Assembly: GCA_021827945.1 (NCBI GenBank)
Contig: JAKATW010000030.1
Location: forward strand, 1-37,247
Length of the DNA: 37,247 nt
Origin: Thermoplasmata archaeon
GTDB lineage: Archaea > Thermoplasmatota > Thermoplasmata > Thermoplasmatales > GCA-001856825
Direction: 5' to 3'
The notes under the pieces were generated by a model. It was not told the DNA's origin, did no database searches, and saw only the letters and a list, made by a program, of their open reading frames with translations. This document shows positions 2,879 to 29,492 of the stretch, piece by piece. Within the stretch, counting starts at the first letter, position 1. Each line of letters starts with the position of its first letter. The position numbers and the translations under genes were made by a program.

Positions 2879-3607
2879 ATGGAAAAGTCACTCGTTCCAC
2901 CATCTATAGAGCTTAACAACATCTCCAAGAGCTACGGAAACGTTCAGGCTCTGAAGGGGTTGAGCTTTAGACTCGAACCAGGAGAGAGATGTGCTTTACT
3001 TGGACCAAACGGTGCAGGTAAGACTACCACGCTCAAGATCCTGGTCGGCCTTCTAACTCCCAACTCCGGAGAGGCAAAGATCGGTAACTATTCGCCCTCT
3101 TCAGAAGATGCGCGCAGGATCATGGGCTACCTGCCAGACGATGCGTCTCCCTATAGGTCTTTTAGTGTAAGGGAAAACATGGAGTACATAGGTGCACTAA
3201 GGGGTGTGGAAGATGTTTCTGACAGGGTTGACAGACTTCTGGACCTGCTACAGTTGAGAGAATACGAAAAGGCAAAGGTCGGCAGACTTTCAAGAGGCAA
3301 TGTCCAGAAACTCGCACTATCTCTGGCAATCATTCACGAGCCACTGGCACTGCTGCTGGATGAACCACTGAACTATCTCGACATTCCAACTCAGGAAACA
3401 GTCATAGACCAGCTGAAGAATCTCAACTCAACTCTTCTGGTATCCACGCACATAATGGAAGTTGCCACCAGACTTACAGAAAGAGTCGTTATGATTTCCC
3501 ACGGGTCTGTTGTCTGGTCTGGGACACTAAATGATCTGAAGAAACTGGGGAAGGACGGAGAACCTGTCGAGAAAATAGTCGCGAGGATGTTAACCGATGT
3601 CCTATAA
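2879..3607 (+). CDS. ABC transporter ATP-binding protein (ORF track start 2771; start at 2879 preferred)
   Basis: Walker [10 protein letters not shown], signature [12 protein letters not shown], Walker B LALLLDEP, His switch STH; domain begins right after the internal Met. Confidence 0.92.
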
Positions 3608-5027
3608 ACTACTCAAGTTCATTATACTCTCCAGATTTTCTAAGCAGCTTCTAGCCCTGATGCTTGTGCTTATGGTATACGCACTGTTCATTAGCTTTGA
3701 AACTGGCTCTACTACCTCAACCTCAATTTATTACTATTATGGACCTGCGTTTGTTGCATTCTTTCTCATACTGCCCATACTAAGCGGTGGAATAGCGGTC
3801 ATGAAATCAGACAGGGATTTCCTCTTCACGCTCCCCATAAAGAGATCGGATCTCGCCTTTTCACTGTTTGTGGTGCAGCTCCTTAGCTTTGGTCTCATCA
3901 TAATCTACGTCCTTGCCTATTCGTTCTCTAGTCTGAAACCGGTTTTTGTCTATGCGCTGATTGACTTTGCTGCGCTCATACTGGTCATAACATCGCTGGG
4001 ACCGATCACTTATTCGCTGAAAATTCAGTGGAGAATTCTACTTGCTATCGTACTGGCAATTTGGCCCCTCTCTGTTTTCGTAGGATTCCCATTCTCTCCT
4101 GCTGCGATATATTCGGGTCATCCATTATATGCAGATATTACTTCGATAATTCTGGCCGTCATTACTGTGCCCCTAGCGTTCAGATCTCTGTCCAGAGTGG
4201 ACCTCGATATGATGAAAACGTTTACTAGATACTCATCTGGACAGGTCAGGCACGTGAGAAGATTCAGCGGAATGTCACCCAATGGGGCAATATTCGCTGA
4301 GAACTTCTTCGTGGTTGAGATTTCAGGCAGGATGAATTCGATGGGTGGAGGTGGTTCGTACAGGTCTGGTAGGTTCAGATTGTGGAAAGGAGTTCTTGTC
4401 ACCGCAGTCCTTGCTGCTGTCTATTATTATATGTTCACATACCGACTGACCATGTCGTTACATACTCAAGAGATGGCCGTCTTAATCATATCTATCTACT
4501 CGATAATATTTGTAATGTTCACGACGATGGGAATCCTCGGGAACGAGAGACTCTGGCTAGGATTCATGACGCGAAATCCTACACGATACCTACGAGATAT
4601 TCTTGTCGCGAAATCGTTGTCCATGGCTACACTCCTTTCACCACTTGCAGTCGCAAATTTCCTCATCGCATATCATGGGAATGAACAGGCCCTGAATTTC
4701 GGCCTCCTTCTGCTGGTTGCAATCCCATCGCTGATCATAATTGTGGTTTTCATGTCAGCGTTTCTCTACCCTTTCCAGATAAAGGAAGATCTGATGATGC
4801 CTGGTCAGTTTAATCTAAGACAGATGGGCACGCTTCTACCTGCACTTCCTGTCTGGTTTTTGGTTGCTCTTTCATTTGGAGTCCTGGAAGCTGGGCTTAC
4901 GCTGGCTGCGATTATAATCACTCTGCTAACTTCTGTGATAATGGCAGGAATTGCACTGGCCATGATATACAGTAAATCTATGGGGCAGAAGCTTATAGAC
5001 AAGCTGGTTACGGTCGGATTTGTTTGA
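3597..5027 (+). CDS. ABC transporter permease, multi-pass membrane protein
   Basis: About 12 hydrophobic segments; start overlaps the ATPase stop. Confidence 0.8.
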
Positions 5028-12213: not shown

Positions 12214-13209
12214 ATGAGTTCAATTTCAATAAAAACTAAAAATCGGGTTATAGTTAAGTTCATAAATGGCAGAAAGCTCGAAGACATCTCACTGGAAGAA
12301 AGAATTTCCCTTAGCTCCGTAGAGGAGGTAATAGAGGAATGGAGGCAGGGCTACATCAACATGGACCTAGGAAACGATATAGCCCAAGAGCTGAAGGAGC
12401 TTGCATTCTTGATCCGAGACAAGGAGATAACTCCACATGACATAGTGGAAGGATATCACTACTACGGAATATTCAAAGAGAAGGACAGAGAGAAGATAAT
12501 TGGAATTGTGAATGAGATCTATTCCATCGGAGAAGAGAGGAGGAGCCATTTTGTAAAGACTGCAGAAAAGATGATGAAGCTTGCAAAGTATGCAAACATA
12601 GAATACGTCGACATTCCCAAAGCAATAGATGATATGGTCGAGAGGGGGAAGGAACTGAACAGAGAGATAAAGAGCAAGGAAATTCTAAACCTGGAACTGA
12701 CAGAAAGACTGACAAAGATAAGGAAAGAGCTCGAGAGTTTTGAGGAGGAGAAGAAGAGTCTGGAGAAAGAGATCGCATTTTCAAACTATCTCAAACAGGA
12801 ACTTACTATGGATGGAAAGTGGGACGAGAATGCGATTAAAAATACAATTGAGGGGCTCAAGCATTCGAACTACGATATCAGGAAGATAGAGGAGACATCT
12901 GCCCAGATAGCACTCATCGGAAAAAGGGAGCTCACCGTAGACCAGTTTCTAAAGATATCCAGGTATTTTGAGGAGCTCATGAACCTAGGACTTACGGTTC
13001 CGACGATGGAGAAGATACTGGACAATGTCAAGGAAGATGGCGTAACTATTGATGAGTACCTCAACGAGAGGGCAGTGTATGTAAGAGACAAACTGGCATA
13101 TCTGAAATCCCTAAAGGAGCTCATGGAAGCACACAAGAGAGCTGAAAAACAGATGAAGCAGATTAATGAGGAAATTTCATTAAAGAAGCTAAAGCTCGAA
13201 AGAACCTGA
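12214..13209 (+). CDS. Hypothetical protein: N-terminal HTH-like segment followed by long coiled coil
   Basis: VKFINGRKLEDISLEERISLSSVEEVIEEWRQGYI resembles an HTH; heptad-rich KELNREIKSKEILNLELTERLTKIRKELESFEEEKKSLEKEI; TATA-like agttatatat upstream. Confidence 0.75.
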   Translation: MSSISIKTKNRVIVKFINGRKLEDISLEERISLSSVEEVIEEWRQGYINMDLGNDIAQELKELAFLIRDKEITPHDIVEGYHYYGIFKEKDREKIIGIVNEIYSIGEERRSHFVKTAEKMMKLAKYANIEYVDIPKAIDDMVERGKELNREIKSKEILNLELTERLTKIRKELESFEEEKKSLEKEIAFSNYLKQELTMDGKWDENAIKNTIEGLKHSNYDIRKIEETSAQIALIGKRELTVDQFLKISRYFEELMNLGLTVPTMEKILDNVKEDGVTIDEYLNERAVYVRDKLAYLKSLKELMEAHKRAEKQMKQINEEISLKKLKLERT

Positions 13210-16117: not shown

Positions 16118-16909
16118 TCAACTTCTCTGTCGTTCTCTAAGCAGCTCTGCCAGCTGTGTCGACTTCTCGGCAACATCTCCTTCTATGAACACTTTCTTTC
16201 TTCGGATTGGTGTTATTTCACTCAATCCTCTCACAAACGTGAAAGAACCTTTATTGCCCGTGACCTCTTCTCTCAGACCAAGATCTCGAGATGACCATAC
16301 CGTTAGGTGAAACTGCGAGAGTGCCCTTTTCATCTTCTTGAAATCCGGGAATCTCGGTTGTACCGCTCCCATCTCTACACTTACCATTGCTGGGAGAGAT
16401 GTCTCAACTACTTCGTGTCCTCCCCTTATTCTCCTCCGTACCCTTAGTTTGCCTGCATCAGCCTCAACGGAAGAGGCAAACAGCACTTGGGGAATGTCCA
16501 GGAACTCTGCAATCTGTCCAGGTAGCTGTCCAAGCGCGGCATCGGATGACTCCTCACCCGCAAGGACCAGGTCATAATCCCCGATCTGAGCTATTGCAGT
16601 CGATAGAACGAGTGCGGTCGGATAGGTGTCTGCACCTCCAAAATTTCTGTCAGAAAGAAGAATGGCATCATCAGCCCCCATAGCTACTCCCAGTTTTAGG
16701 AAGTTCTCAAACAGAGGTGGGCCCATAGAGATAAGAATAACTCTCCCACCCTGCTTCTCTCTCACCCTAAGAGCGATCTCGATTGCAGTCTTGTCAGCTT
16801 CGTTTATCTGGTTCTCCGCCTTACTCCTGTCCAACCTCTTTGTCACTGGGTCAAAAATGATGTTTTCTGACTTCGGGACTACCTTCAGACAAACGATAAT
16901 GTTCCTCAT
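16118..16909 (-). CDS. etfB: Electron transfer flavoprotein subunit beta
   Basis: CLKVVPKSENIIFDPVTKRLDR..NQINEADKTAIEIALR; LVLAGEESSDAALGQLPGQIAE; overlaps etfA stop (ATGA). Confidence 0.92.
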   Translation of the reverse strand: MRNIIVCLKVVPKSENIIFDPVTKRLDRSKAENQINEADKTAIEIALRVREKQGGRVILISMGPPLFENFLKLGVAMGADDAILLSDRNFGGADTYPTALVLSTAIAQIGDYDLVLAGEESSDAALGQLPGQIAEFLDIPQVLFASSVEADAGKLRVRRRIRGGHEVVETSLPAMVSVEMGAVQPRFPDFKKMKRALSQFHLTVWSSRDLGLREEVTGNKGSFTFVRGLSEITPIRRKKVFIEGDVAEKSTQLAELLRERQRS

Positions 16910-17880
16910 CGTTTCTCCTCCAGTTTCTTAATGACAGCGGGAACGATTTCAGCTACATCGCCAACCACGCAGTAGTCCGAGTGGTTGAATATTTCTGATT
17001 CTTTGTCTATGTCTACAGATATAACGGTCCCGCAGTCCCTTATGCCTGATGTGAAGTGCTCCGAACCACTTACGCCCAAAATTAAAGTAAGTCTGGATTT
17101 CAGGGAATATCCGGTGGTTCCCACCTGCAGATCCCTGGGGGCTAATCCTTTGTCGGCGAGGGGTCTAGTGACTCCCACGTCAGAGTTAGTGAGTTCAGCA
17201 AGCCTCCGGACCATTGAAAGGTCTCCTCCAATTCCGTTCCCTCCGACTATCGTTCTCTCGGACTTGGTGAGATCCTTTGACTTTGTGACCTTTCTCTCTA
17301 TTACCCTTACCCTGTCTTGAATCGATGAGAGATCGGGTATCACCTCGACGATCTCCCCTTTCCTGTCCTGATCAAAGAACTTCGTGAATGTACCAGGTCT
17401 AACGGTTGACATCTGTGGACGAGCTCTCTCGCACACAATCTCTGCCATTATTTTGCCTCCATATGCGGGAACACCAAAAACGAGAAGCCCTTCCTCATCC
17501 ATTTTAAGGTTAATTGCGTTTGCAGTAAGTCCCGTTCTGAGCCTTGCTGCAAGTCTTCCCGCAAGATCCCTACCATAGTAGGTTGCACCGATCAGAAGAG
17601 CTGTTGGAAATTCCGATGAGGCTAAATCGAAGAGAACTTTTGAATACAGATCGTTCGAATACTCATTGAGCCTCTCGTGCTTCATCAGAATCACCTTGTC
17701 AGCACCGTACCTGATAACATCCCGCAACACACTCTCGTTAGATGTGCCCAGCACGATACCCACGACTTTATATCCTGATGACTTAGCAAGGACGGTCAAT
17801 TTACCCAGAATTTCAAGGGACACATCCTCTATCTCGTCTTCGTTCCTCTCGACAATTACCCATATCTCCTTTCTAGTCAT
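16906..17880 (-). CDS. etfA: Electron transfer flavoprotein subunit alpha
   Basis: VVGGNGIGG...VGVTRPLADKGL...VGTTGYSLKSRLTLILGVSGSEHFTSGIRDCGTVISVDIDKESEIFNHSDYCVVGD. Confidence 0.92.
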   Translation of the reverse strand: MTRKEIWVIVERNEDEIEDVSLEILGKLTVLAKSSGYKVVGIVLGTSNESVLRDVIRYGADKVILMKHERLNEYSNDLYSKVLFDLASSEFPTALLIGATYYGRDLAGRLAARLRTGLTANAINLKMDEEGLLVFGVPAYGGKIMAEIVCERARPQMSTVRPGTFTKFFDQDRKGEIVEVIPDLSSIQDRVRVIERKVTKSKDLTKSERTIVGGNGIGGDLSMVRRLAELTNSDVGVTRPLADKGLAPRDLQVGTTGYSLKSRLTLILGVSGSEHFTSGIRDCGTVISVDIDKESEIFNHSDYCVVGDVAEIVPAVIKKLEEKR

Positions 17881-19001
17881 TTCAGATTCTCCTCCAGAAA
17901 TTCCGCAAACTCTTTCACGCGGACGTTCACTCCATTGGTCTTTGCGCTATCCAGGAGGTTCATGTTGCATATCGGACAGGAGGTTATCACAGTCTCTGCT
18001 CCCGTATCCCTGGCCTGTTCAATTCTGAAATCAGAGAGTCTCTTTCCCTCAAAATCGACGAACATCCTGTTTCCACCTCCTCCACAGCATAGGCTGTCCT
18101 TTCCCGAAGATGACATTTCCTTGACTTCTATCTCTGGGAAGAGGCTGAACATTTCCCTCAAGCTATCCGGTCCGTCGCCATATCTACTCAGGTAGCATGG
18201 ATCGTGAATCGTGATCTTCCCGTGCGCCTCCTTCCCGAGGTTCACCTTACCGTCTTGCAGCAGGGAATTGAGGAAATCAGAATAGTGTTTCACTTCAAGC
18301 TTCATCCCACTTTTCTTGTAGACCGTATTGAACATGTTCCCACAGTGCGGTGAGAAAGCCACTATCGTCTTTGCCCCGGTCTTCTCAAACTGCTCAATGT
18401 TATCCTGGACTAGATCGTCAAGGAAGTACCGTTCACCTGCGTTCCTTACCGGTTCTCCGCAGCATTTCTCTTCATTTCCCAGTATTCCAAAATCAACACC
18501 AGCCTTTTTCAAGATATCGGCCAGGCCCTTAAGTGACTTGTGAAGATTTTTATTGTAGGCTGCGTCACATCCAACGTACAGAAGAACCTCCGTTCCCTCT
18601 TTGGCATCTTTGAGGTTGAGTCCCTCTGACCATTTCGATCTGTCCACCTTCTTTCCGCCCCACGGGTTGCCAGTTTCGTAGATGTCCCACAAAAGTTTGA
18701 CTATCTTATCCGGTGCCCTTCGCTCTTCAAACTCAAGCTGGCGGAGGCCAGTAATTACATTCACGATCTCTACCTGCCTCGGACAGGACTGCTCGCAGAG
18801 TTTACATGTAGAACAGTTCCACACGGTTTCGGAGATATCAAGACCAATCTGGGCCCTTCGCATCAGATTTCTGACGTCCAGGTCTTCTTCTCCCAAGTAA
18901 CCAAGCGGACAGGTCGCGGTACACACTCCGCACTGGAAGCACTCGTTTCCGTTGAATCCGGTCAGGTTGGTGATCTTTTCCCACCTGAGATCATCGATCA
19001 C
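17877..19001 (-). CDS. HdrC-HdrB (HdrD-like) fusion: heterodisulfide reductase-type Fe-S protein
   Basis: Two CxxCxxCxxxCP ferredoxin motifs (CFQCGVCTATCP, CSTCKLCEQSCP) then two CCG-type units (KCCGEP...SPHCGNM; DPCYL...LCCGGGGNRM...CPICNMN); GTG start. Confidence 0.9.
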   Translation of the reverse strand: MIDDLRWEKITNLTGFNGNECFQCGVCTATCPLGYLGEEDLDVRNLMRRAQIGLDISETVWNCSTCKLCEQSCPRQVEIVNVITGLRQLEFEERRAPDKIVKLLWDIYETGNPWGGKKVDRSKWSEGLNLKDAKEGTEVLLYVGCDAAYNKNLHKSLKGLADILKKAGVDFGILGNEEKCCGEPVRNAGERYFLDDLVQDNIEQFEKTGAKTIVAFSPHCGNMFNTVYKKSGMKLEVKHYSDFLNSLLQDGKVNLGKEAHGKITIHDPCYLSRYGDGPDSLREMFSLFPEIEVKEMSSSGKDSLCCGGGGNRMFVDFEGKRLSDFRIEQARDTGAETVITSCPICNMNLLDSAKTNGVNVRVKEFAEFLEENLK

Positions 19002-22000
19002 TAACGTCTTATCACTCCCTTCAGCTTCGAATCAGTGCTCGTAATCTCATCTCTTGAAAGAGATTTGATAAGTGCGTCCATTTCCCTGATCTTTGAGGCA
19101 AACCTGTTGCCTTCAGCCGCGCTGACCCACCACAGCTGCAGTCTATCGGGATTGACCTTCTTTGCTTCCAGAAAGTGTCTCCATCTCTCCACCCTCTTTT
19201 CCGTGTACTCGTTGGCATCAATATAATGGCAGTCGTTTATGTGGCAGCCCGTTACGAGTACAGCACCTGGGTTCCGGCTGAAGGCGTACATCACGAGCTT
19301 CTGCGAAATTCTGCTTGAACACATGGTCCTAATGACTCGTGCGCTTGGAGGGTACTGGATTTTGGAAATTCCTGCCTGATCTGCCCCTGCGTAGGAGCAC
19401 CAGTTGCACGCAAAAACAACCAACTTTTCCTCAGGCTTTTCTGCGGTTGCAGCATCTATCTGCGTCATGATTTCCGAATCCGTGAAATTAGGCATGGTGA
19501 TTGCCCCGTCTATGTTGCACTCTGCTACACAGTTTCCACATCCCATACAGGCTGCGGGAACGAGATTTATCCATTTCCCTCTCTCTCCCTTTATTGCTCC
19601 GTATGGGCAGACTTCCGCGCACCTAAGACACTTCACGCACTTTTTCTCGTCTATCTGTGGTATTATGGGTTCTTTGTTTATCTTACCACTAAACAGAAGT
19701 TTTGCAGCCTTTGCAGCAGTCGCGTATCCCTGCGATATGGACTCCTTTACACCCTTTGGTCCCTGAACAGTTCCAGCAAGGAAGACTCCCTGTACAGCGG
19801 CCTCTACCGGTCCAAGCTTGGGGTGCACTTCCAGCAGAAACCCTTCGCTATCTCTCGAGAGCTTGAGTTGAGTAAATATCTCCTCGTCTTTTGGCTTCAG
19901 CCCAATGTTCAGGACGAGATGATCCACCGGTGCCTTCATCCTGGTGGACGATAGCTGATCCACGAAAGTCAATGAAGAGCCATCAAATTCCAGGGCCTCA
20001 CTGGGGGTCTTGGAGGGATCGTACCGGAAGAATTGGACGCCCTTCTCCCCCGCCTTTCTGTAGAGTTCCTCCGCATTTCTCTCGTACGCCCTGATGTCCT
20101 TGTAAAAGACACGAACAGTCTTCCCCTTTTCCTTCAGATCTATTGCCTGTTGGAGCATGGTAGAACAGCAGAATCTCGAACAGCCTCTCTCTCCATTTCT
20201 CGAGCCTATGCAGGAAATCATAGCATATTTGTCGCCCTCGACCTTGGAGTAGCTCTTCTCCAGATCGAGAGAGGTTATCACCTCTGGAACTTCTCCGTAC
20301 CTGAATTCGGTTGGCTGGTATGGGTCCGCCCCAGTGGCAATAATGACCGCACCTGCATCGATTTTTCCACCATCTGACAGTGTCGCTGAGAAGTTCCCGA
20401 CGAATCCCGTTATTTCCTTTACTGTTGTGGAGGTGTGAACAGTTGCACCAGAGTTCTGCAAGCCCTCCTGCAGTTTTTGAAGAGTCCTGTCTGCCCTCTC
20501 AAGTTCCGGAGAGACTATGTCTATCGAATTCAGAAGTCCACCCAGTCTCCCTTCTTTCTCGACTAGGTGAACCTCAATGCCCATCCTCGAGAGAGAAGAT
20601 GCAGCCGCAATCCCGGCAGGTCCTCCGCCTATGACCAGACCAGTTCTGATAACGGGGAACTCAATGTCATCCATTGGAGTGAGTAGCCTGGCCTTTGAGA
20701 CTGCCATGTTCACGATGTCTACAGCCTTTTCAGTGGCCAGGATCTTCTCCTTCTTGTGGACCCAAGAGTCCATGTTTCTAACGTTGGCCATCTCAAAGAG
20801 GTATGGGTTCAGTCCCGCTCTAGAACACACCCTCTGGAATGTAACGCCGTGGGTCTTGGGAGAACAAGCTCCAACGACGAGTCTGTTCAGTTTCTTTTCC
20901 TTTATCTTCTCCCTGATAGAATCCTGCGTGCTCCCTGCACAGGTATATTTGTTCTCCTCCACATAAGCTACGTTGGGCAGGGCCCTTATTTGGTCCACAA
21001 CCTTTTTGACGTCAACGACCCCCGCAATGTTGGAGCCGCAGTCGCACAGGAAAACACCAATCCTCGGGTCTCCAGAGACATCCAGGGGAGGAGGCAGAGG
21101 TTCCTCTATCCATTCTCTCTTCTTCACGTATCTCAGTGCCTGGGCCGTTGCAGCGGAGGCTTCCGTCACGCTATCTGGAATATCCTTAGGTCCAGAGGCG
21201 CAACCTGCAACGAAAATTCCGTTTCTGGTTGTTGAAACAGGGTCTTCAAGTCTGTTCTTGAAGAATCCGTCCTCGGACAGTTCAATTCCAAGGGTTTTCG
21301 CTAGCTTGGGAGTGCCCTTCGATGGGATGGAGGCAGTTGCCAGAACGACCATTCCATATTCTTCCTCTATGATCGAACCATCGCTCGTCGCATACCTCAC
21401 CGATATGTCATCATCCTTCCTCTTCACGGATGCAGGTCTTGACCTTATGTATCTAATGTCCTTTTGAGATCTCGAGTAGAGTTCGTCGAATCCTTTTCCG
21501 TAAGCCCTTATGTCCATGTAGAGTACAGTCACGTTCTTTATACCGTGATCCACGAGCTGCGATGCCTCCTTTATTGAGTACATGCAGCACGTCCTCGAGC
21601 AGTAGGGAACGAACCTGGTATCGCGAGACCCTGCGCAGAGAACGAACAAGACGCTATCCGGATGCTTTCCGTTGGAAGGTTTTATTATCTCCCCCTCAGT
21701 CGGACCCGCAGCATTGATAAGTCTTTCCAGCTCGTATGATGTCACTATGTCTGGGTCAGATGAGTAACCAAATTCGTCCAGAAGCGAGGCATTGAAGAGG
21801 TCAAAACCAGTTGCTACTATTATGGACGCAACGTTTTCTCTTATGACGCTGGGTGCCATGTTAAAATCTATTGCATCGGGTCCGCACGCATCGGTGCATC
21901 GTCCGCACGGAAGATAGTTCGGAGGATCATTCAGGCAGCTCTCTATATCTATAACGTAGGGTCCTGGTTCTGCCTGGGAAAATGGCGTGTAAATTGCCTT

Positions 22001-22387
22001 CCTTGCTCCAATGCCAGCATCAAATTCATTCTTGCGAATCTGAGGACATGCTTGGGTACACAGGTCGCATCTGGTACACGCATCCGTCACAAACCTCGGT
22101 TTCTGGTTGATCGTTACCTGGAAATTTCCCTCTTCCCCCTTCACCTCGGTGACCTCCGCAAGGGTGAGCACCCTGATGTTCGGATTGTGTGTGACGTCGC
22201 TCATCTTGGGTGCCTCTATGCATATCGAACAATCAAAGGTCGGAAAATTTTTGTCGAGGGCAGCCATCTTGCCACCAATGGAGGCTGTCTTCTCGACCAG
22301 CAGGACCTCTGCTCCGGCCTCTGCCAGATCGAGGGAGGCCTGGATACCCGCTATTCCTCCTCCTATAATCAGTACCTTATCTGCCAT
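19001..22387 (-). CDS. hdrA: HdrA-HdrA-MvhD fusion (two FAD-binding HdrA modules, ferredoxin domains, C-terminal MvhD/FlpD-like domain)
   Basis: VLIIGGGIAGIQAS...VLFVLCAGSRDTRFVPYCSRTCC; second module IGVFLCDCGSNIAGVVDV...GLVIGGGPAGIAAA...ISCIGSRNGERGCSRFCC; CVKCLRCAEVCP/CMGCGNCVAEC; MvhD-like VVFACNWCSYAGADQAG...RTMCSSRI...GCHINDCHY. ORF track starts at 22417; MADKVL at 22387 preferred. Confidence 0.92.
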   Translation of the reverse strand: MADKVLIIGGGIAGIQASLDLAEAGAEVLLVEKTASIGGKMAALDKNFPTFDCSICIEAPKMSDVTHNPNIRVLTLAEVTEVKGEEGNFQVTINQKPRFVTDACTRCDLCTQACPQIRKNEFDAGIGARKAIYTPFSQAEPGPYVIDIESCLNDPPNYLPCGRCTDACGPDAIDFNMAPSVIRENVASIIVATGFDLFNASLLDEFGYSSDPDIVTSYELERLINAAGPTEGEIIKPSNGKHPDSVLFVLCAGSRDTRFVPYCSRTCCMYSIKEASQLVDHGIKNVTVLYMDIRAYGKGFDELYSRSQKDIRYIRSRPASVKRKDDDISVRYATSDGSIIEEEYGMVVLATASIPSKGTPKLAKTLGIELSEDGFFKNRLEDPVSTTRNGIFVAGCASGPKDIPDSVTEASAATAQALRYVKKREWIEEPLPPPLDVSGDPRIGVFLCDCGSNIAGVVDVKKVVDQIRALPNVAYVEENKYTCAGSTQDSIREKIKEKKLNRLVVGACSPKTHGVTFQRVCSRAGLNPYLFEMANVRNMDSWVHKKEKILATEKAVDIVNMAVSKARLLTPMDDIEFPVIRTGLVIGGGPAGIAAASSLSRMGIEVHLVEKEGRLGGLLNSIDIVSPELERADRTLQKLQEGLQNSGATVHTSTTVKEITGFVGNFSATLSDGGKIDAGAVIIATGADPYQPTEFRYGEVPEVITSLDLEKSYSKVEGDKYAMISCIGSRNGERGCSRFCCSTMLQQAIDLKEKGKTVRVFYKDIRAYERNAEELYRKAGEKGVQFFRYDPSKTPSEALEFDGSSLTFVDQLSSTRMKAPVDHLVLNIGLKPKDEEIFTQLKLSRDSEGFLLEVHPKLGPVEAAVQGVFLAGTVQGPKGVKESISQGYATAAKAAKLLFSGKINKEPIIPQIDEKKCVKCLRCAEVCPYGAIKGERGKWINLVPAACMGCGNCVAECNIDGAITMPNFTDSEIMTQIDAATAEKPEEKLVVFACNWCSYAGADQAGISKIQYPPSARVIRTMCSSRISQKLVMYAFSRNPGAVLVTGCHINDCHYIDANEYTEKRVERWRHFLEAKKVNPDRLQLWWVSAAEGNRFASKIREMDALIKSLSRDEITSTDSKLKGVIRR

Positions 22388-22910
22388 ACTTGGCCCCCTC
22401 GTCGTACCCGCGCTCAAAACACGCTATATTTGCATCCACATACTTGGGGAACCTCTTCGTTATTGCCCTTCTCCCCGACTCAGCTGAGAAAGTCTTTGTC
22501 AGGCCAGAAAATGCTCCCATCAGTACTATGTTTGCCCCCTTAGGGTTCCTCAGGGACTTTGAAATCTCTATACCGTTGATCTCTATGCTTCTGGGCCTCA
22601 TGTTTTCGGGAACTGTCACCAGACTCTTCTCTGTTAGTACCGTTGATTTTGAGTCTAGATCTTTAAGTGTCGCGTCTAATCCTTCTTGTGAAAGAGTCAC
22701 CAGGTAATTGAGTTCTTCAGGAAGCGGATAGTCTATCGTCTCATCACTTATGACCAGATCAGCCTTGGACCACCCTCCGGTGATATAAGGACTGTATTCC
22801 TCGGTCATTATGACGAATTTTCCATCCTCTAATGCCGCCTCCCCAACCAGTTTTGCAAGAGTTATTATCCCCTGACCTCCCATTCCGTACATCCTGATTC
22901 CAAGCTTCAT
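22377..22910 (-). CDS. korC: 2-oxoacid:ferredoxin oxidoreductase subunit gamma
   Basis: MKLGIRMYGMGGQGIITLAKLVGEAALEDGKFVIMTEEYSPYITGG. Confidence 0.92.
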   Translation of the reverse strand: MKLGIRMYGMGGQGIITLAKLVGEAALEDGKFVIMTEEYSPYITGGWSKADLVISDETIDYPLPEELNYLVTLSQEGLDATLKDLDSKSTVLTEKSLVTVPENMRPRSIEINGIEISKSLRNPKGANIVLMGAFSGLTKTFSAESGRRAITKRFPKYVDANIACFERGYDEGAKYGR

Positions 22911-23749
22911 TTCCTCGCCCCCATTGCTTTTTCCACAAGCTCATTTTCCAGCATGACGTAAGAAGGTCTCTTCCTGTCGACGAAATCTCCAAGAATGACC
23001 GGTTTTCCATGGAACGGGTCAATGGATACGTCCTCGAGCCTCGCATCATTCTGCACCGTCGATTTGGTGCGGTAGAACTCCATCTCTTCAAAACCATCTC
23101 CGAATCCGTTGAATTTGCCAAAATTTGGGGGGCACGGAGAAAGCACTTCAATGAAAGCAAATCCCTTCGTATCCATAGCCATTCTGATCGATTTTGCAAG
23201 CTGTCTTGGGTGCATTACCGTCCACCTGGCCACATATGAAGCCCCAAGGGCTGATGCAAGGTAGGGGAGGTTGAAAGTTGGTTCAACGTTACCGTAAGGG
23301 GTGGACGCTGACTTCGAGGTCAGCGGAGTAGTTGAACCGTGCTGTCCGCCCGTCATTCCATAATTGAAGTTGTTTGAACAGATAACGACAAGGTCCATGT
23401 TTCTCCTGGCAGCGTGGATAAAATGGTTTCCTCCGATGTTGAAGAGATCGCCATCACCGCTTATCACCGTGACCTTCAGTTCTGGGTTTGCAATTTTCAT
23501 CCCAGTAGCGAAGGGTATCGCCCTCCCATGCGTGGTGTGATACGAATCGAATTTGGCGTAGCCTGGAAGTCTAGCCGTACATCCGATTCCTGAAACGAGA
23601 ACTTGTCGTTCTAGAGGTACCGCAGACTTTTCAACTGCATTCAGGTAACTCTGTAGGAGGATACCGAGTCCGCAGCCAGGGCACCACACGTTTGGAAATC
23701 TCTCTTCCCTAATGAGAGCGTGTTTTGGATGGAACTCTTCAGTGGTCAT
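22907..23749 (-). CDS. korB: 2-oxoacid:ferredoxin oxidoreductase subunit beta (TPP-binding)
   Basis: WCPGCGLGI; GHGRAIPFATGMKIANPEL-like region; SGDGDLFNIGGNHFIHAARRNMDLVVICSNNFNYGMTGGQHG. Confidence 0.93.
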   Translation of the reverse strand: MTTEEFHPKHALIREERFPNVWCPGCGLGILLQSYLNAVEKSAVPLERQVLVSGIGCTARLPGYAKFDSYHTTHGRAIPFATGMKIANPELKVTVISGDGDLFNIGGNHFIHAARRNMDLVVICSNNFNYGMTGGQHGSTTPLTSKSASTPYGNVEPTFNLPYLASALGASYVARWTVMHPRQLAKSIRMAMDTKGFAFIEVLSPCPPNFGKFNGFGDGFEEMEFYRTKSTVQNDARLEDVSIDPFHGKPVILGDFVDRKRPSYVMLENELVEKAMGARK

Positions 23750-24882
23750 ATGAACGTCCCCTCGATTTTCTTAAGGATGATGCTGTAATCTGGAACTGCT
23801 CCTGGTGGAAAATGGATCTCCTTGGTCTCGGATCTACTGTACTCTCTTATCGGGTGTGAATACTGACCGTAGTTGATCTCCGGAACTATGAATTCCCTCG
23901 TCCGTTCCGCAATCTGTTCGATCCTCTTCTGCGGAAAAGGCCACAGGGTTATTGGCCTGAAGAGACCCACTTTAAGTCCCCGCTTTCTGGCAATACTCAC
24001 GGCCTGCTTTGCTGCACGGGAAGTTATACCGTATGCAACAACGGTCACCTCGGCGTCCTCCATGAAAAATTCTTCGTATCTCACTATTTTTCCCTCATTG
24101 TTCTTCACCTTACCGAGTAGATGCTCGAGCATCTCCCTCTCAACAGAAGCTTCATTTGAAGGATAGCCTCTCTCGTCGTGCGTCAGGCTGTCGACATTTC
24201 CCTTGAAGCCTGTTCCAGCAACAAACATTGGAATGTAGTCTTCTGTGTAACTGAAGACTCTATTCTCATCATCATGCTTCCTTGTCATCCTCTGGACGAC
24301 CTCATACTCCTCAGATGGCTTCACCTCTAAGACTTCCGAAAGATGACCTACAACTTGGTCAGATGCTATTATGACTGGTTGTCTGTACTTTTCAGCAGAA
24401 TTGAATGCCTCTATTGTAATATCGAAGGATTCCTGAACGCTGTTTGGAGCATATGTTATCGGTGCCAGATCCCCATGGGAGCCATATCGTGTTTGCATTA
24501 CGTCTCCCTGACCAACCCTGGTCGGGATGCCCGTGGAAGGGCCGGCTCTCATCTCATCCAGAACGACGGTGGGAGTTTCAGTTATGATACCTAGGCCGAT
24601 GTTCTCTTGCATAAGTGAAAACCCTGGGCCAGAAGTGGCGGTCATGCTCTTTGCACCTGCGTTGGAAGCTCCAATTATTGCGGCCATGCTTCCTATTTCG
24701 TCTTCCATTTCAATGAAGTGCCCACCAAGTTTTGGCAGCCGTTCACTCATCCTTTCTAGCACTTCGCTGGAAGGAGTTATAGGATAACCGGCGAAGAATC
24801 TGCAGCCACCCATTAGAGCACCCTCCGTAACTGCAAAGTTGCCGTCAGCAAAGTACTTGCCTGGTTCCAGCAGAGCAGTCAT
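23746..24882 (-). CDS. korA: 2-oxoacid:ferredoxin oxidoreductase subunit alpha
   Basis: GNFAVTEGALMGGCRFFAGYPITPSSEVLERMSERLP; GPGFSLMQENIG; start MTALLEPG at 24882 overlaps korD stop as ATGA (track start 24951). Confidence 0.93.
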   Translation of the reverse strand: MTALLEPGKYFADGNFAVTEGALMGGCRFFAGYPITPSSEVLERMSERLPKLGGHFIEMEDEIGSMAAIIGASNAGAKSMTATSGPGFSLMQENIGLGIITETPTVVLDEMRAGPSTGIPTRVGQGDVMQTRYGSHGDLAPITYAPNSVQESFDITIEAFNSAEKYRQPVIIASDQVVGHLSEVLEVKPSEEYEVVQRMTRKHDDENRVFSYTEDYIPMFVAGTGFKGNVDSLTHDERGYPSNEASVEREMLEHLLGKVKNNEGKIVRYEEFFMEDAEVTVVAYGITSRAAKQAVSIARKRGLKVGLFRPITLWPFPQKRIEQIAERTREFIVPEINYGQYSHPIREYSRSETKEIHFPPGAVPDYSIILKKIEGTFI

Positions 24883-25187
24883 ATCTGTACCTCCCTTACG
24901 AAAATTGCAAAGTCTGGACAGATGGTCTGGCACATTCCGCAGGCAACGCACGAATCTTCCTTACCTGCTTTTACCCTGACTGGATGGTAGCCGTGACTGT
25001 TCACAATGGGAGATCTTTCCAGAACATCATTTGGACAGTAGTTCGTGCAATAATTGCACTCCTTGCACCTTTCGGGAATTATGTGCACCTCCCCTCTGGG
25101 CTTGGCGAACTTTTCATAATTAACTGGTTCTCTCCAGATCTCTTTTTGGGCATCAGAAATCTTAGGTCCTTTCAACATAATATGCAC
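24879..25187 (-). CDS. korD: 2-oxoacid:ferredoxin oxidoreductase subunit delta (2x[4Fe-4S] ferredoxin)
   Basis: CKECNYCTNYCPNDVL and CVACGMCQTICPDFAI. Confidence 0.9.
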   Translation of the reverse strand: MHIMLKGPKISDAQKEIWREPVNYEKFAKPRGEVHIIPERCKECNYCTNYCPNDVLERSPIVNSHGYHPVRVKAGKEDSCVACGMCQTICPDFAIFVREVQI

Positions 25188-25348
25188 TATTAAACAATAA
25201 CATTATTCTTAAATCTCTATAAATCAATTGCGTTTAGCAGGCCTAAATTATTAAGGTTTCCTAAGCTTCTATATGATGCGAATTACTGCCTTCTTGATAT
25301 TCTGTACAGCTAATCAAGAGTTAAATACAGAATCTTGGTAGTGAGAAG
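25188..25348. promoter_or_regulatory. Divergent promoter region for the korDABC-hdr-etf operon (minus) and radical SAM gene (plus)
   Basis: Only intergenic gap upstream of the eight-gene minus-strand chain; AT-rich TATA-like elements on both strands. Confidence 0.55.
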
Positions 25349-26353: not shown

Positions 26354-26577
26354 TTCAATGACAAGAAAGGATAAGGCAACCAATAGAAACGAAAGAAGAT
26401 ATTGAGAATACGAGAGCGTCAATAGAGACGCAGGGAAACCAACTTAGGACTTACTGTGGCAAATGTGCCTAATGAACCTTTTGGGACACTCGAACACGAA
26501 TCAATGAATGTCAACACACTCTAACTGTCCCTCTAATGCGCATCCTCAGATACGCAGTCGGAAATTCCGAAGAACAG

Positions 26578-26662
26578 TGCGGAGGGCCGGATTTGAACCG
26601 GCGAACCCCTATGGAAACAGATCTTGAGTCTGTCGCCTTTGGCCAAGCTCGGCAACCTCCGC
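26578..26662 (-). tRNA. tRNA-Leu (anticodon CAA), long variable arm, no encoded CCA
   Basis: GCGGAGG...CCTCCGC acceptor pairing; anticodon arm ACAGA-CTCAAGA-TCTGT; T-arm GCCGG-TTCAAAT-CCGGC. Confidence 0.95.
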
Positions 26663-26684
26663 TGGGGGGAGAACTGTTGGAAAC

Positions 26685-28160
26685 TTATATTACTTGCTGT
26701 AGTGGCTCCCTTTGCTCCTTTCGAACCATTCTCAGGGTCGGCTTTGGATTCTTTGAGGCGTCGACATCGTCGATCCTCGTGACTTTCAGATTCATAGGTT
26801 CCTTTTCAAAAGTTTCGTGTGTCAATTTGAGTGTTTGTCTTACGGTCTCAACAAACAGATCCATCTCTGCCTTTGTAGCACTTTCAGTTGGTTCAATCAT
26901 GAGAGCCTCAGGAACGATGAGGGGGAAGTAGATGGTCGGGGCATGGACTCCGTTATCTATCAGGTGCTTAGCAATGTCCCCTGCCTTTGGCATGTTCTGT
27001 CCTACGGATGAAGCTACGAATTCGTGTTTTTTGACTGTTTTGCCTGGTACTGGCATGAATTCCTGGATCTTTTTCCTCATATAGTTGGAGTTCAGGACTG
27101 CAGTTTCACAAGCGTCTCTGAGACCTTCCTCTCCCATCATTTTTATGTAAGTCCAGGCCCTTACAAGTACGCCGAAATTTCCGTAGAAGCTAGCTACTTT
27201 CCCTATCGATTTCGGTGGGGCATAGTCGTTGTAGTACTTCTCACCATCAAACGTTACCAGTGGATAGGGAAGGAAATCCTTGAGTTTCTCTACCACTCCC
27301 ACAGGTCCCGCACCTGGCCCTCCGCCCCCATGAGGCGTGGAGAATGTCTTGTGGAGGTTGAGGTGGACTATATCGAATCCCATCTTGGCAGGGGTGGTCT
27401 TTGTCATAATTCCATTCAGATTTGCGCCATCGTAGTAGAGCAGAGCCCCTTTAGAATGAGCATAGTTTGCCATTTCTACAATCTTATCCTCAAAGATTCC
27501 TAGTGTGTTCGGATTTGTGATCATGAACGCGGCGGTCCTCTCCGTTACTGCCTCTTTGAACTTTTCGATGTCAACTGTTCCATCTGGGGTGGAAGGAATC
27601 TGGACCACTTCGAAACCTGCCATGTGAGATGATGCAGGGTTGGATCCATGTGCAGAATCTGGAACTACGACCTCCCTTCTGGTTTCAAGCTCCTTCTTGC
27701 ACTCGAAATATGCCCTTACTATTGATAGTCCGGTAAACTCTCCTCCCGCTCCAGCAAGCGGTTGGAGTGTTATCTCGTCCATTCCAGTAATCTTCTTGAG
27801 AGACTCTGAGAGTTCGTAGAGCAGTTTCAATGCGCCCTGGACCTCGCCGCAATCCTGAAGAGGATGGATCATCCTGAATCCCTCCAGGCCTGCGATTTCA
27901 TCGTTGATCTTTGGGTTATACTTCATTGTACAGGATCCCAGGGGGTAAAAGCCGGTATCTGCACCGAAATTCATTTCTGAGAGTTTCACAAAGTGCCTGA
28001 TGACTGAAAATTCTTCCCTGTCACCAATTCCAACACTTTCTCTCTTCATGATCTCTGGTACTGTTATTTTGAAGTTCTCGTTCTCCCGAGGAATCTTTAA
28101 GGTTCTCCTTCCCCTTAAATCGAGGATGATTGGCTCATCAAACACGGCCTGATGATACAT
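26685..28160 (-). CDS. gcvPB: Glycine dehydrogenase (decarboxylating) subunit 2
   Basis: GFYPLGSCTMKYNPKIN; PDSAHGSNPASSHMAGF; DIVHLNLHKTFSTPHGGGGPGAGPVGV (PLP Lys). Confidence 0.96.
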   Translation of the reverse strand: MYHQAVFDEPIILDLRGRRTLKIPRENENFKITVPEIMKRESVGIGDREEFSVIRHFVKLSEMNFGADTGFYPLGSCTMKYNPKINDEIAGLEGFRMIHPLQDCGEVQGALKLLYELSESLKKITGMDEITLQPLAGAGGEFTGLSIVRAYFECKKELETRREVVVPDSAHGSNPASSHMAGFEVVQIPSTPDGTVDIEKFKEAVTERTAAFMITNPNTLGIFEDKIVEMANYAHSKGALLYYDGANLNGIMTKTTPAKMGFDIVHLNLHKTFSTPHGGGGPGAGPVGVVEKLKDFLPYPLVTFDGEKYYNDYAPPKSIGKVASFYGNFGVLVRAWTYIKMMGEEGLRDACETAVLNSNYMRKKIQEFMPVPGKTVKKHEFVASSVGQNMPKAGDIAKHLIDNGVHAPTIYFPLIVPEALMIEPTESATKAEMDLFVETVRQTLKLTHETFEKEPMNLKVTRIDDVDASKNPKPTLRMVRKEQREPLQQVI

Positions 28161-29492
28161 CTATGCCACCTCCCTCAGGAATTCCCTGTATGCATTGAAA
28201 TCTTCATTCGTATTTCTCTCTGTCACATTGGTCACAATATTTACCTGGTTCCTGTCGTTAAATCCATAGTCCTTCCCGAGCATGTACCCCGGGTTCAGAT
28301 TGTACTTCTTGGCTATCCGGCTTACGAACGTTTTAGACTCCTTGAGTCTGATCAAAAATTCATTGAAAACAGGAGATCCTTCATATGGAAAATACGTGCC
28401 AAACTCTTTTGCGATCTCAATGAGTTCTCTCGTTCTGCCCATGTTGACTTCTCCAATCTTTCTGAGACCTGAGTCTCCAAGCAAAGAGAGATATACGGCT
28501 GATGCAACTGCCATCAGTGCCTGATTGCTAGTCATGTTGGTTACTGCCCTCTCTCTCCTAATGTGCTGCTCTCTGGTCTGGAGAATCATTGAAAATGCAA
28601 CATTACCATTGTGATCTTTAGTCATTCCCATAATCTTTCCCGGCATCTTTCTGATATATTGTTCCTTAGTTCCGAACAAGCCAACTACTGGACCTCCATA
28701 ATTGAGACCGAGACCCAGCACCTGCCCTTCCCCAATTGCAATGTCTGCGCCGAATTTTCCCGGTGGAGCAAGTACTCCCAGAGAGATTGGGTTAACTCCA
28801 GCTACGAATAATCTCTCCTCTCCAATCATCTCTTTGATCTTTGAGACGTTTGTATCTATGATGCCGAACATGTTTGGATACTCCGCATAGACTCCAGATG
28901 TATTTTCAGTGATCATCTTTTCAAGAGAAGATAGATCGATCATTCCCCTGTCGTCAAAATCGACCTCCTTAATTCTTATGCCTGCACCTTTAGCATAGTT
29001 GTCCAGAACGGCCCGCCTGTTTCTGCTTATGTACTTAGGAACTATGAACTCATCCTTGCCCGTTATGTTCTTCGCCATTCTAGCAGCTTCACCTAGGGAG
29101 GTGGCCACATCGTACATTGAAGAATTTACCGCATCCATCTCTAGGAGCTCTGCAACAAGGCTCTGATACTCGTAAAGAGCCTGCATTATGCCCTGAGATA
29201 TCTCTGCCTGATAGGGGGTGTATGCTGTCAAGAATTCGTTCCTGTTCACGACATTGGCTATGGCAGCTGGAACGAAATGATTATACATACCGAAACCCAG
29301 GAACGAATGCTGCTGATTGACCGTCTTGTTCATGCCTGCATACTCACCAGCTACTCTCCTTATTTCATCTTCATCCAGTCCTATGGGAAGACCCAATATT
29401 CTGGTTCTTATTGATTCTGGGATGTCTCTGAAAAGTTCATCGGGACTTTGGATTTTTAACTCCTTCAATAATTCTGATAGATCGTTACTCAT
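28161..29492 (-). CDS. gcvPA: Glycine dehydrogenase (decarboxylating) subunit 1
   Basis: SFLGFGMYNHFVPAAI; AYTPYQAEISQGIMQALYEYQSLVAELLEMDAVNSSMYD; GAxxxNYGGPVVGLFGT. Confidence 0.96.
   Translation of the reverse strand: MSNDLSELLKELKIQSPDELFRDIPESIRTRILGLPIGLDEDEIRRVAGEYAGMNKTVNQQHSFLGFGMYNHFVPAAIANVVNRNEFLTAYTPYQAEISQGIMQALYEYQSLVAELLEMDAVNSSMYDVATSLGEAARMAKNITGKDEFIVPKYISRNRRAVLDNYAKGAGIRIKEVDFDDRGMIDLSSLEKMITENTSGVYAEYPNMFGIIDTNVSKIKEMIGEERLFVAGVNPISLGVLAPPGKFGADIAIGEGQVLGLGLNYGGPVVGLFGTKEQYIRKMPGKIMGMTKDHNGNVAFSMILQTREQHIRRERAVTNMTSNQALMAVASAVYLSLLGDSGLRKIGEVNMGRTRELIEIAKEFGTYFPYEGSPVFNEFLIRLKESKTFVSRIAKKYNLNPGYMLGKDYGFNDRNQVNIVTNVTERNTNEDFNAYREFLREVA

Follow-up and report, generated by a model that had tools for sequence, protein, structure and literature searches.

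Eight genes that overlap end to end on one strand of an archaeal contig raise the question of whether they encode several independent enzymes or a single electron-transfer machine and, if the latter, at which flavin electrons could be bifurcated. The locus lies in a stretch of 37,247 nucleotides (hereafter the window; GenBank contig JAKATW010000030.1) from a Thermoplasmata archaeon, which is part of contig C146 of a 1.83-Mb genome that is 87% complete. Head to tail on the minus strand, from position 25187 down to 16118, run korD-korA-korB-korC-hdrA/hdrA/mvhD-hdrCB-etfA-etfB (Table 1), that is, a four-subunit 2-oxoacid oxidoreductase (Kor), two HdrA modules and MvhD fused in one chain, a protein joining an HdrC part to two CCG domains (HdrCB), and an electron-transferring flavoprotein (Etf). 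We put a probability of about one half on the reading that this operon encodes one soluble electron-transfer complex with a single bifurcation-competent flavin in the N-terminal half (N-half) of HdrA, which would be fed by Kor and served by EtfAB as a conduit, confurcation being the likeliest mode.

An eight-gene unit kept in order in archaea and bacteria

A preliminary description, made from the sequence of the window, had proposed that eight genes chained by overlaps form one supercomplex behind a promoter-sized gap. All eight open reading frames were found where it placed them, and their family assignments hold in Pfam and NCBIfam searches. The overlap is 4 nt at the korD/korA, korA/korB, korB/korC, hdrCB/etfA and etfA/etfB junctions, 11 nt at korC/hdrA and 1 nt (TAGTG) at hdrA/hdrCB; korA starts at ATG 24882, the GTG 24951 of the open-reading-frame list lying further upstream and being unneeded. 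The gap between korD and its divergent neighbour measures 161 bp; by eye, a TATA-like TTTATA can be seen in it ~31 nt upstream of the GTG start, at minus-strand positions 25223-25218.

A search for the same order elsewhere excluded that the arrangement is unique to this genome. All eight genes occur in fixed order at 16 loci, 14 archaeal (window included) and two from Anaerolineae (the window, L116-L126, L184, L185, L037 and L039), with hdrCB interrupted in L124 and etfB running off the contig in L119; four copies cut by contig ends (L038, L040, L071, L127) agree with this order. The 1100-aa double HdrA was traced across 61 related genomes, in the host's own genus (84-95% identity), two other genera of the family and two further families of the order, and every relative for which enough flanking sequence was retrieved has all eight genes in the same order. 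The unit is also present in two genomes of the phylum that fall outside the class (G068 and G070; HdrA identity 53-54%). Among relatives, the order is maintained at HdrA identities as low as about 53-64%. When one genome per species was scanned, the same order turned up in Anaerolineae (L037 and L039; L038 cut), in Elusimicrobiota (L040, cut inside etfA) and in one archaeon (L071, cut). Such recurrence lies far beyond chance. The overlaps in the nearest relatives (L116, L117) are identical to those of the window, and in other members of the genus they differ little from these.

The Kor part is a complete enzyme of the four-subunit type, with alpha, beta, gamma and delta subunits, a thiamine pyrophosphate (TPP) domain, the cluster cysteines of the beta subunit and an eight-cysteine delta subunit. 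The eight cysteines of KorD are invariant in 17 operon members, as are C23, C26, C57 and C206 of KorB among the operon members. The closest solved relative of KorB is 8ys5, the beta subunit of 2-oxoglutarate:ferredoxin oxidoreductase; the nearest models and structure for the operon Kor are 2-oxoglutarate enzymes, which makes 2-oxoglutarate a candidate substrate. The host genome holds four matches to the keto-acid oxidoreductase alpha domain, that of the operon among them. A second, divergent KorA-KorB pair adjoins the operon in the order-level relatives L124, L126 and L127.

A sister arrangement, KorDABC - double HdrA - MvhD - HdrCB - further HdrA without Etf, was found in Planctomycetota, Myxococcota, other bacteria and one Thermoplasmatota genome; such clusters lie at L051, L052, L053, L055, L062 and L100. 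Two settings thus combine this Kor type with a double HdrA, the operon and these Etf-less clusters. A quick KorA tree, in which the outgroup branches are long, has four changes, one of them forced, and is compatible both with a single origin of the operon Kor and with more than one.

The double HdrA and its flavin residues

The two HdrA halves proved complementary when aligned to 5odc, the HdrA of HdrABC-MvhAGD. The N-half has an FAD/TrxR domain with an inserted 2x[4Fe-4S] ferredoxin domain and lacks both the N-terminal and the C-terminal Fe-S domain; the C-terminal half (C-half) has the N-terminal Fe-S domain (C448, C450, C483, C508), an FAD/TrxR domain and the C-terminal 2x[4Fe-4S] domain and lacks the inserted one. 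Only the N-half carries, besides the inserted domain, the flavin lysine K273 (equivalent to Lys409) and C56 (equivalent to Cys197), both invariant in 28 of 28 sequences, and Q746 stands in the C-half where Lys409 would be. At this C-half position, operon members carry Q, N, H, S or G, and other double HdrAs mostly K or R. The five cysteines of the MvhD domain (C994, C997, C1023, C1048, C1053) are invariant as well. Taken together, the halves thus carry the Lys409 and the Fe-S domains that characterise the HdrABC-MvhAGD type and, judging from these residues and those of Etf described below, the N-half flavin of HdrA is the only one of the set that keeps its putative bifurcation residue.

In the solved HdrABC-MvhAGD complex, Cys197 of one HdrA completes the cluster in the N-terminal domain of the other HdrA (PMC9012536). 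Because one half of the fused chain supplies the Cys197 equivalent and the other half the N-terminal domain, the chain holds each half of the joint cluster site once. The predicted structure of the 1128-aa chain is confident throughout (pLDDT 87.3, pTM 0.89), and its closest folds are the HdrA of HdrABC complexes. The complementary halves and this model support the earlier proposal of an HdrA dimer within one chain.

Double HdrAs of ~1000 aa with this order of halves occur widely, MvhD being a separate protein there. TGA (selenocysteine) stands at the Cys197 codon in many of those from bacteria, implying that this position matters; the operon family has Cys. An in-frame TGA falls exactly on that codon in L045, L046, L049, L054, L061, L066, L070, L073, L077, L081, L083, L095, L096, L099, L101 and L110. 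HdrA selenoproteins are already known, and these codons fit them. We rejected selenocysteine for the archaeal hdrA genes, in several of which the in-frame TGA sits just upstream of the start codon; as the relatives begin at the same site, the start of the fused gene in the window was set to ATG 22387 in place of the listed TTG 22417.

HdrCB and the operon Etf

The nearest solved relative of HdrCB by sequence is EtfD (9ojn, E 7e-49), and its fold is closer to EtfD (TM-score 0.83) than to HdrB (0.50). The second, C-terminal CCG site is intact (C269, C305, C306, C342, C345) in all sequences compared, and the first, N-terminal one has S217 for Cys in all operon members and has lost its cysteines in L039. 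HdrCB is 374 aa long and begins at the Fe-S domain, and EtfD aligns with it from ~residue 400 to 725; by this length and alignment it has no membrane domain for quinone reduction. EtfD receives electrons from Etf, and its homologues FadF and DgcB also lack the first-site (D1) Cys, from which electron entry at the second cluster was inferred (PMC13083937). With EtfD as the nearest relative in sequence and fold and with a single intact non-cubane site, HdrCB is best read as an Etf-facing relay rather than as a disulfide reductase. Ser217 was rejected as a marker of Etf linkage, as Chloroflexota HdrCB without a nearby Etf (L084, L108, L115) carry Ser too. Where compared, the HdrCB of the sister clusters, which lack Etf, still has Cys at the position that the operon family fills with Ser.

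The closest solved structures for both EtfA and EtfB are bifurcating Etfs, in which an Arg contacting N5 of the bifurcating flavin (b-FAD) is required for bifurcation in the members characterised (PMC9232219, PMC10734219). In bifurcating EtfAB of group 2, this Arg belongs to the RPxFGG motif of EtfA. In EtfA of the window the residue is V137, and all operon EtfA, from archaea and bacteria alike, share this Val. When a sample of 293 genomes from the phylum was compared, the five EtfA closest to the query (at least 43% identity) were all operon-borne and all had Val; the residue is Arg in 25 of 25 other EtfA examined in the phylum (the L169 alignment is shifted by one column in this comparison). 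The b-FAD motif of EtfB is degenerate too, with DAALGQLPG in the window (aa 123-131) and DGATGQVPQ in L037 against DGDTAQVGP. The NAD-site motif RxFxG (R88; RNFGG in the window) was kept in 14 of the 14 operon EtfB compared, and small residues (A or G) occupy positions 123-124, which by a published rule leave the flavin room (PMC12630350). We infer from these relatives and residues that EtfAB descends from bifurcating Etfs and is itself non-bifurcating.

Two further Etf sets occur in the host genome. The first adjoins a FixC-like protein, the second an EtfD-like protein and beta-oxidation genes, and with these FixC-linked and EtfD-linked sets kept separate, the third set, in the operon, looks dedicated. 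The EtfD-linked set (L130, contig C44, 52-5516) starts with the 578-aa EtfD-like protein, which has two CCG domains, followed by etfB, etfA and a 3-hydroxyacyl-CoA dehydrogenase/enoyl-CoA hydratase gene; it is likely the beta-oxidation-to-quinone route of this genome.

The supercomplex of the preliminary description thus came through in part: the conserved unit and the dimer in one chain were supported, and its HdrB-type sites as a disulfide site and a bifurcating Etf were not, the former because the first CCG site lacks a ligand and HdrCB resembles EtfD, the latter because Val replaces the essential N5 arginine in all members of the operon family.

Electron path and competing explanations

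In the complex that we favour, KorDABC would oxidise or make a 2-oxoacid and would exchange low-potential electrons with HdrA via KorD and/or MvhD and the Fe-S domains of HdrA. The HdrA halves would fold onto each other as an internal pseudo-dimer with one bifurcation-competent flavin, that of the N-half. The higher-potential branch may run from HdrA through the HdrC part and the single non-cubane cluster of HdrCB to EtfAB, as in EtfD-type proteins with Etf, and EtfAB would act as a non-bifurcating conduit to NAD(H) or to a flavin dehydrogenase of the acyl-CoA or 2-hydroxyacid type. A third, mid-potential partner, either soluble ferredoxin or NAD(H), would dock where a site is free, on MvhD or on the ferredoxin domain of HdrA. 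The likeliest direction would be confurcation at HdrA, in which 2-oxoacid electrons help lift those of a weaker Etf-side donor to the mid-potential carrier. As a plausibility check, the textbook potentials of electrons from a 2-oxoacid (~-490 mV) and from an Etf-side donor (~-150 mV) average to ~-320 mV, the potential of NAD.

The partner of MvhD is probably not MvhAG, because no NiFe hydrogenase (PF00374) was found in any of 15 family genomes, the host's own, 87% complete, and 14 others, which extends to the genome and the family what had earlier been noted for the window; neither Anaerolineae carrier genome has one either, and such a hydrogenase was therefore rejected as the partner. Acyl-CoA or 2-hydroxyacid dehydrogenases are possible partners on the Etf side, since the host genome encodes eight matches to the acyl-CoA dehydrogenase N-terminal domain and two to FAD-oxidase-C. 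Among the operon-flanking genes of distant carriers, no shared physiological partner was found. Beside the operon in genome G010 (L117:316-4107) lie genes for a molybdopterin oxidoreductase with Fe-S and NAD-binding subunits, a set that recalls NAD(P)-linked formate dehydrogenases.

Several points weigh against a confurcating complex. Co-transcription of the genes does not prove a complex. In L039, ~1.9 kb of other genes part korC from hdrA, and tight coupling of the genes is therefore not universal. Lys409 is a marker borrowed from known HdrA, leaving the role of K273 in bifurcation putative, and Kor does not need bifurcation thermodynamically when it reduces ferredoxin. The adjacency of a zinc-containing ferredoxin gene in four relatives suggests that Kor may simply reduce free ferredoxin, and the RxFxG motif retained by EtfB would fit a simple NAD wire equally well.

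The main rival, which we consider rather doubtful, is such a plain wire from keto acid to NAD+: without ferredoxin or bifurcation, electrons would pass linearly from the 2-oxoacid through Kor, HdrA, HdrCB and EtfAB to NAD+, with EtfB as the NAD-reducing subunit. The kept NAD motif and the flavin room beside residues 123-124 speak for it, and an Etf that has lost its N5 Arg has no need to bifurcate. Also in its favour, one keto-acid oxidoreductase that contains NAD subunits of its own is known, the NADH-dependent phenylglyoxylate dehydrogenase; models of this enzyme (NCBIfam) score weakly on the operon proteins. A plain wire would have no need for the retained Lys409 equivalent, the inserted ferredoxin domain or the MvhD cysteines, and the degenerate b-FAD motif of EtfB also speaks against it.

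We judge it unlikely that one promoter merely serves separate machines for the same pathway, with Kor reducing free ferredoxin and Hdr-Etf forming a distinct complex. The other keto-acid oxidoreductases of the host genome fit this possibility, as does the zinc-containing ferredoxin, since in Thermoplasma and Sulfolobus such proteins serve keto-acid oxidoreductases as electron acceptors (PMC2946596). In four relatives its gene adjoins etfB on the other strand (L117:4262-4690, L118:9389-9814, L122:11719-12144, L123:13791-14219; family confirmed for the L123 copy by NF041165, the Thermoplasmatales zinc-ferredoxin model); it is absent beside the window operon. Separate machines do not, however, readily account for the full set of parts being kept over very large distances and across domains, and the two cluster types uniting this Kor with a double HdrA argue for contact. 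Finally, a reductase of the heterodisulfide or CoA-disulfide type, catalytic at HdrCB and supplied with electrons by Etf, is very improbable: HdrCB does have CCG domains like those of HdrB, HdrD and TfrB, but heterodisulfide cleavage as known employs a pair of non-cubane clusters (Wagner et al. 2017, cited in PMC13083937), of which one site here lacks a ligand, and the fold is closer to EtfD than to HdrB.

HdrA complexes with exchangeable partners, the idea of a Kor-Hdr supercomplex and fused HdrAs are all already known. HdrABC-MvhAGD and its H2- or formate-driven relatives (5odc, 7bkb, 8rvu) share with the operon the HdrA fold, Fe-S domains, flavin lysine, MvhD domain and HdrC part, but the operon has a double HdrA in one chain instead of a homodimer, no MvhAG, one intact non-cubane site, and Kor and Etf in addition. 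For tubeworm symbionts and Thioflavicoccus, where korABCD genes are scattered among flxABCD-hdrABC, a Kor-Hdr supercomplex was put forward in 2019 (PMC6315080) on the same idea, that of an HdrA complex trading electrons directly with a four-subunit Kor. Those clusters carry the NADH-linked FlxABCD and a thiol:fumarate reductase, in contrast to EtfAB, the HdrCB fusion and the double HdrA-MvhD of the operon; no FlxABCD module was found in or beside the latter. Fused HdrAs have been described in ANME archaea (HdrA3 and 4, PMC9012536; type II, PMC12054007). Like the operon HdrA, the type II protein has two TrxR domains per chain and a complementary N-terminal domain and Cys197, but its half with the N-terminal domain comes first and the flavin Lys is reported in both halves, whereas in the operon the order is reversed, MvhD is fused and the C-half Lys is lost (Q746).

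Of the CCG-type Etf:quinone reductases (EtfD, FadF, DgcB; 9ojn), EtfD is closest to HdrCB, which has the intact D2 site and adjoins EtfAB but, without a membrane domain, is no quinone reductase by itself. The bifurcating Ldh-EtfAB, Bcd-EtfAB, CarCDE and EtfABCX are nearest to the operon EtfA and EtfB, which have lost the bifurcation arginine and the b-FAD motif. Class II benzoyl-CoA reductase BamB-I has HdrA-, HdrB- and MvhD-like subunits. Etf genes (BamOP) are formed alongside it (PMC5109826); the window has Kor instead of a tungsten catalytic subunit.

In the open-access literature searched, with most subscription papers outside its scope, we found neither an eight-gene unit that includes Etf nor its spread across domains, the reversed halves with MvhD or the arginine loss in Etf. 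The bifurcating systems described so far couple H2, formate, NADH, F420H2, lactate or acyl-CoA. Only tentatively, the operon may define a new HdrA-based confurcating class in archaea and bacteria, in which a single HdrA flavin would receive electrons directly from Kor and from a dedicated, non-bifurcating Etf. Such a complex would couple the oxidation of 2-oxoacids to the Etf-linked oxidation of acyl-CoA or hydroxyacids with no free ferredoxin involved, even in a lineage with a haem-copper oxidase and a complex I subunit. If this is true, a keto acid fed straight into the HdrA flavin, together with the Etf link, would join two of the main bifurcating families, Hdr and Etf, and would make a central step of carbon metabolism the site of coupling. 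One surviving and two lost bifurcation residues make a sharp, testable prediction of the bifurcation site, and the Val-for-Arg exchange in EtfA is a simple marker for finding more members.

Table 1. Features of the operon and its upstream region in the window.
Feature	Coordinates	Strand	Description and basis
korD	24879..25187	-	2x[4Fe-4S] ferredoxin-like delta subunit; GTG 25187, alternative start ATG 25178; OGOR delta / OorD models
korA	23746..24882	-	2-oxoacid:acceptor oxidoreductase alpha subunit; POR_N + PFOR_II; above NF006412 cut-off
korB	22907..23749	-	TPP-binding beta subunit; TPP_enzyme_C
korC	22377..22910	-	gamma subunit; POR family
hdrA-hdrA-mvhD fusion, 1128 aa	19001..22387	-	NF040770 HdrA2 above cut-off; FlpD/MvhD domain
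HdrA N-half, aa 1-438	21074..22387	-	alignment to 5odc_A
HdrA C-half, aa 439-985	19433..21073	-	alignment to 5odc_A
MvhD domain, aa 986-1128	19004..19432	-	FlpD; five conserved Cys
hdrCB	17877..19001	-	CCG + Fer4 domains; 2x[4Fe-4S] HdrC part + two CCG domains
etfA, alpha subunit	16906..17880	-	ETF + ETF_alpha domains
etfB, beta subunit	16118..16909	-	domain match + alignment
Divergent intergenic region, putative operon promoter	25188..25348		sequence, by eye only

The host genome also encodes a haem-copper oxidase subunit (C12:2588-3907, L148) and the complex I subunit NuoH (C161:5741-6652, L149), whose presence in a genome that also carries this anaerobe-type operon suggests oxygen respiration or tolerance. 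Elsewhere in the window, split glycine decarboxylase genes (26577-29492), with the P-protein in two parts, lie beside a tRNA-Leu (CAA) gene. Two open frames of 331 aa (12214-13209) and 476 aa (3597-5027) have no Pfam match; the latter comes after an ABC ATPase gene and may encode its permease.

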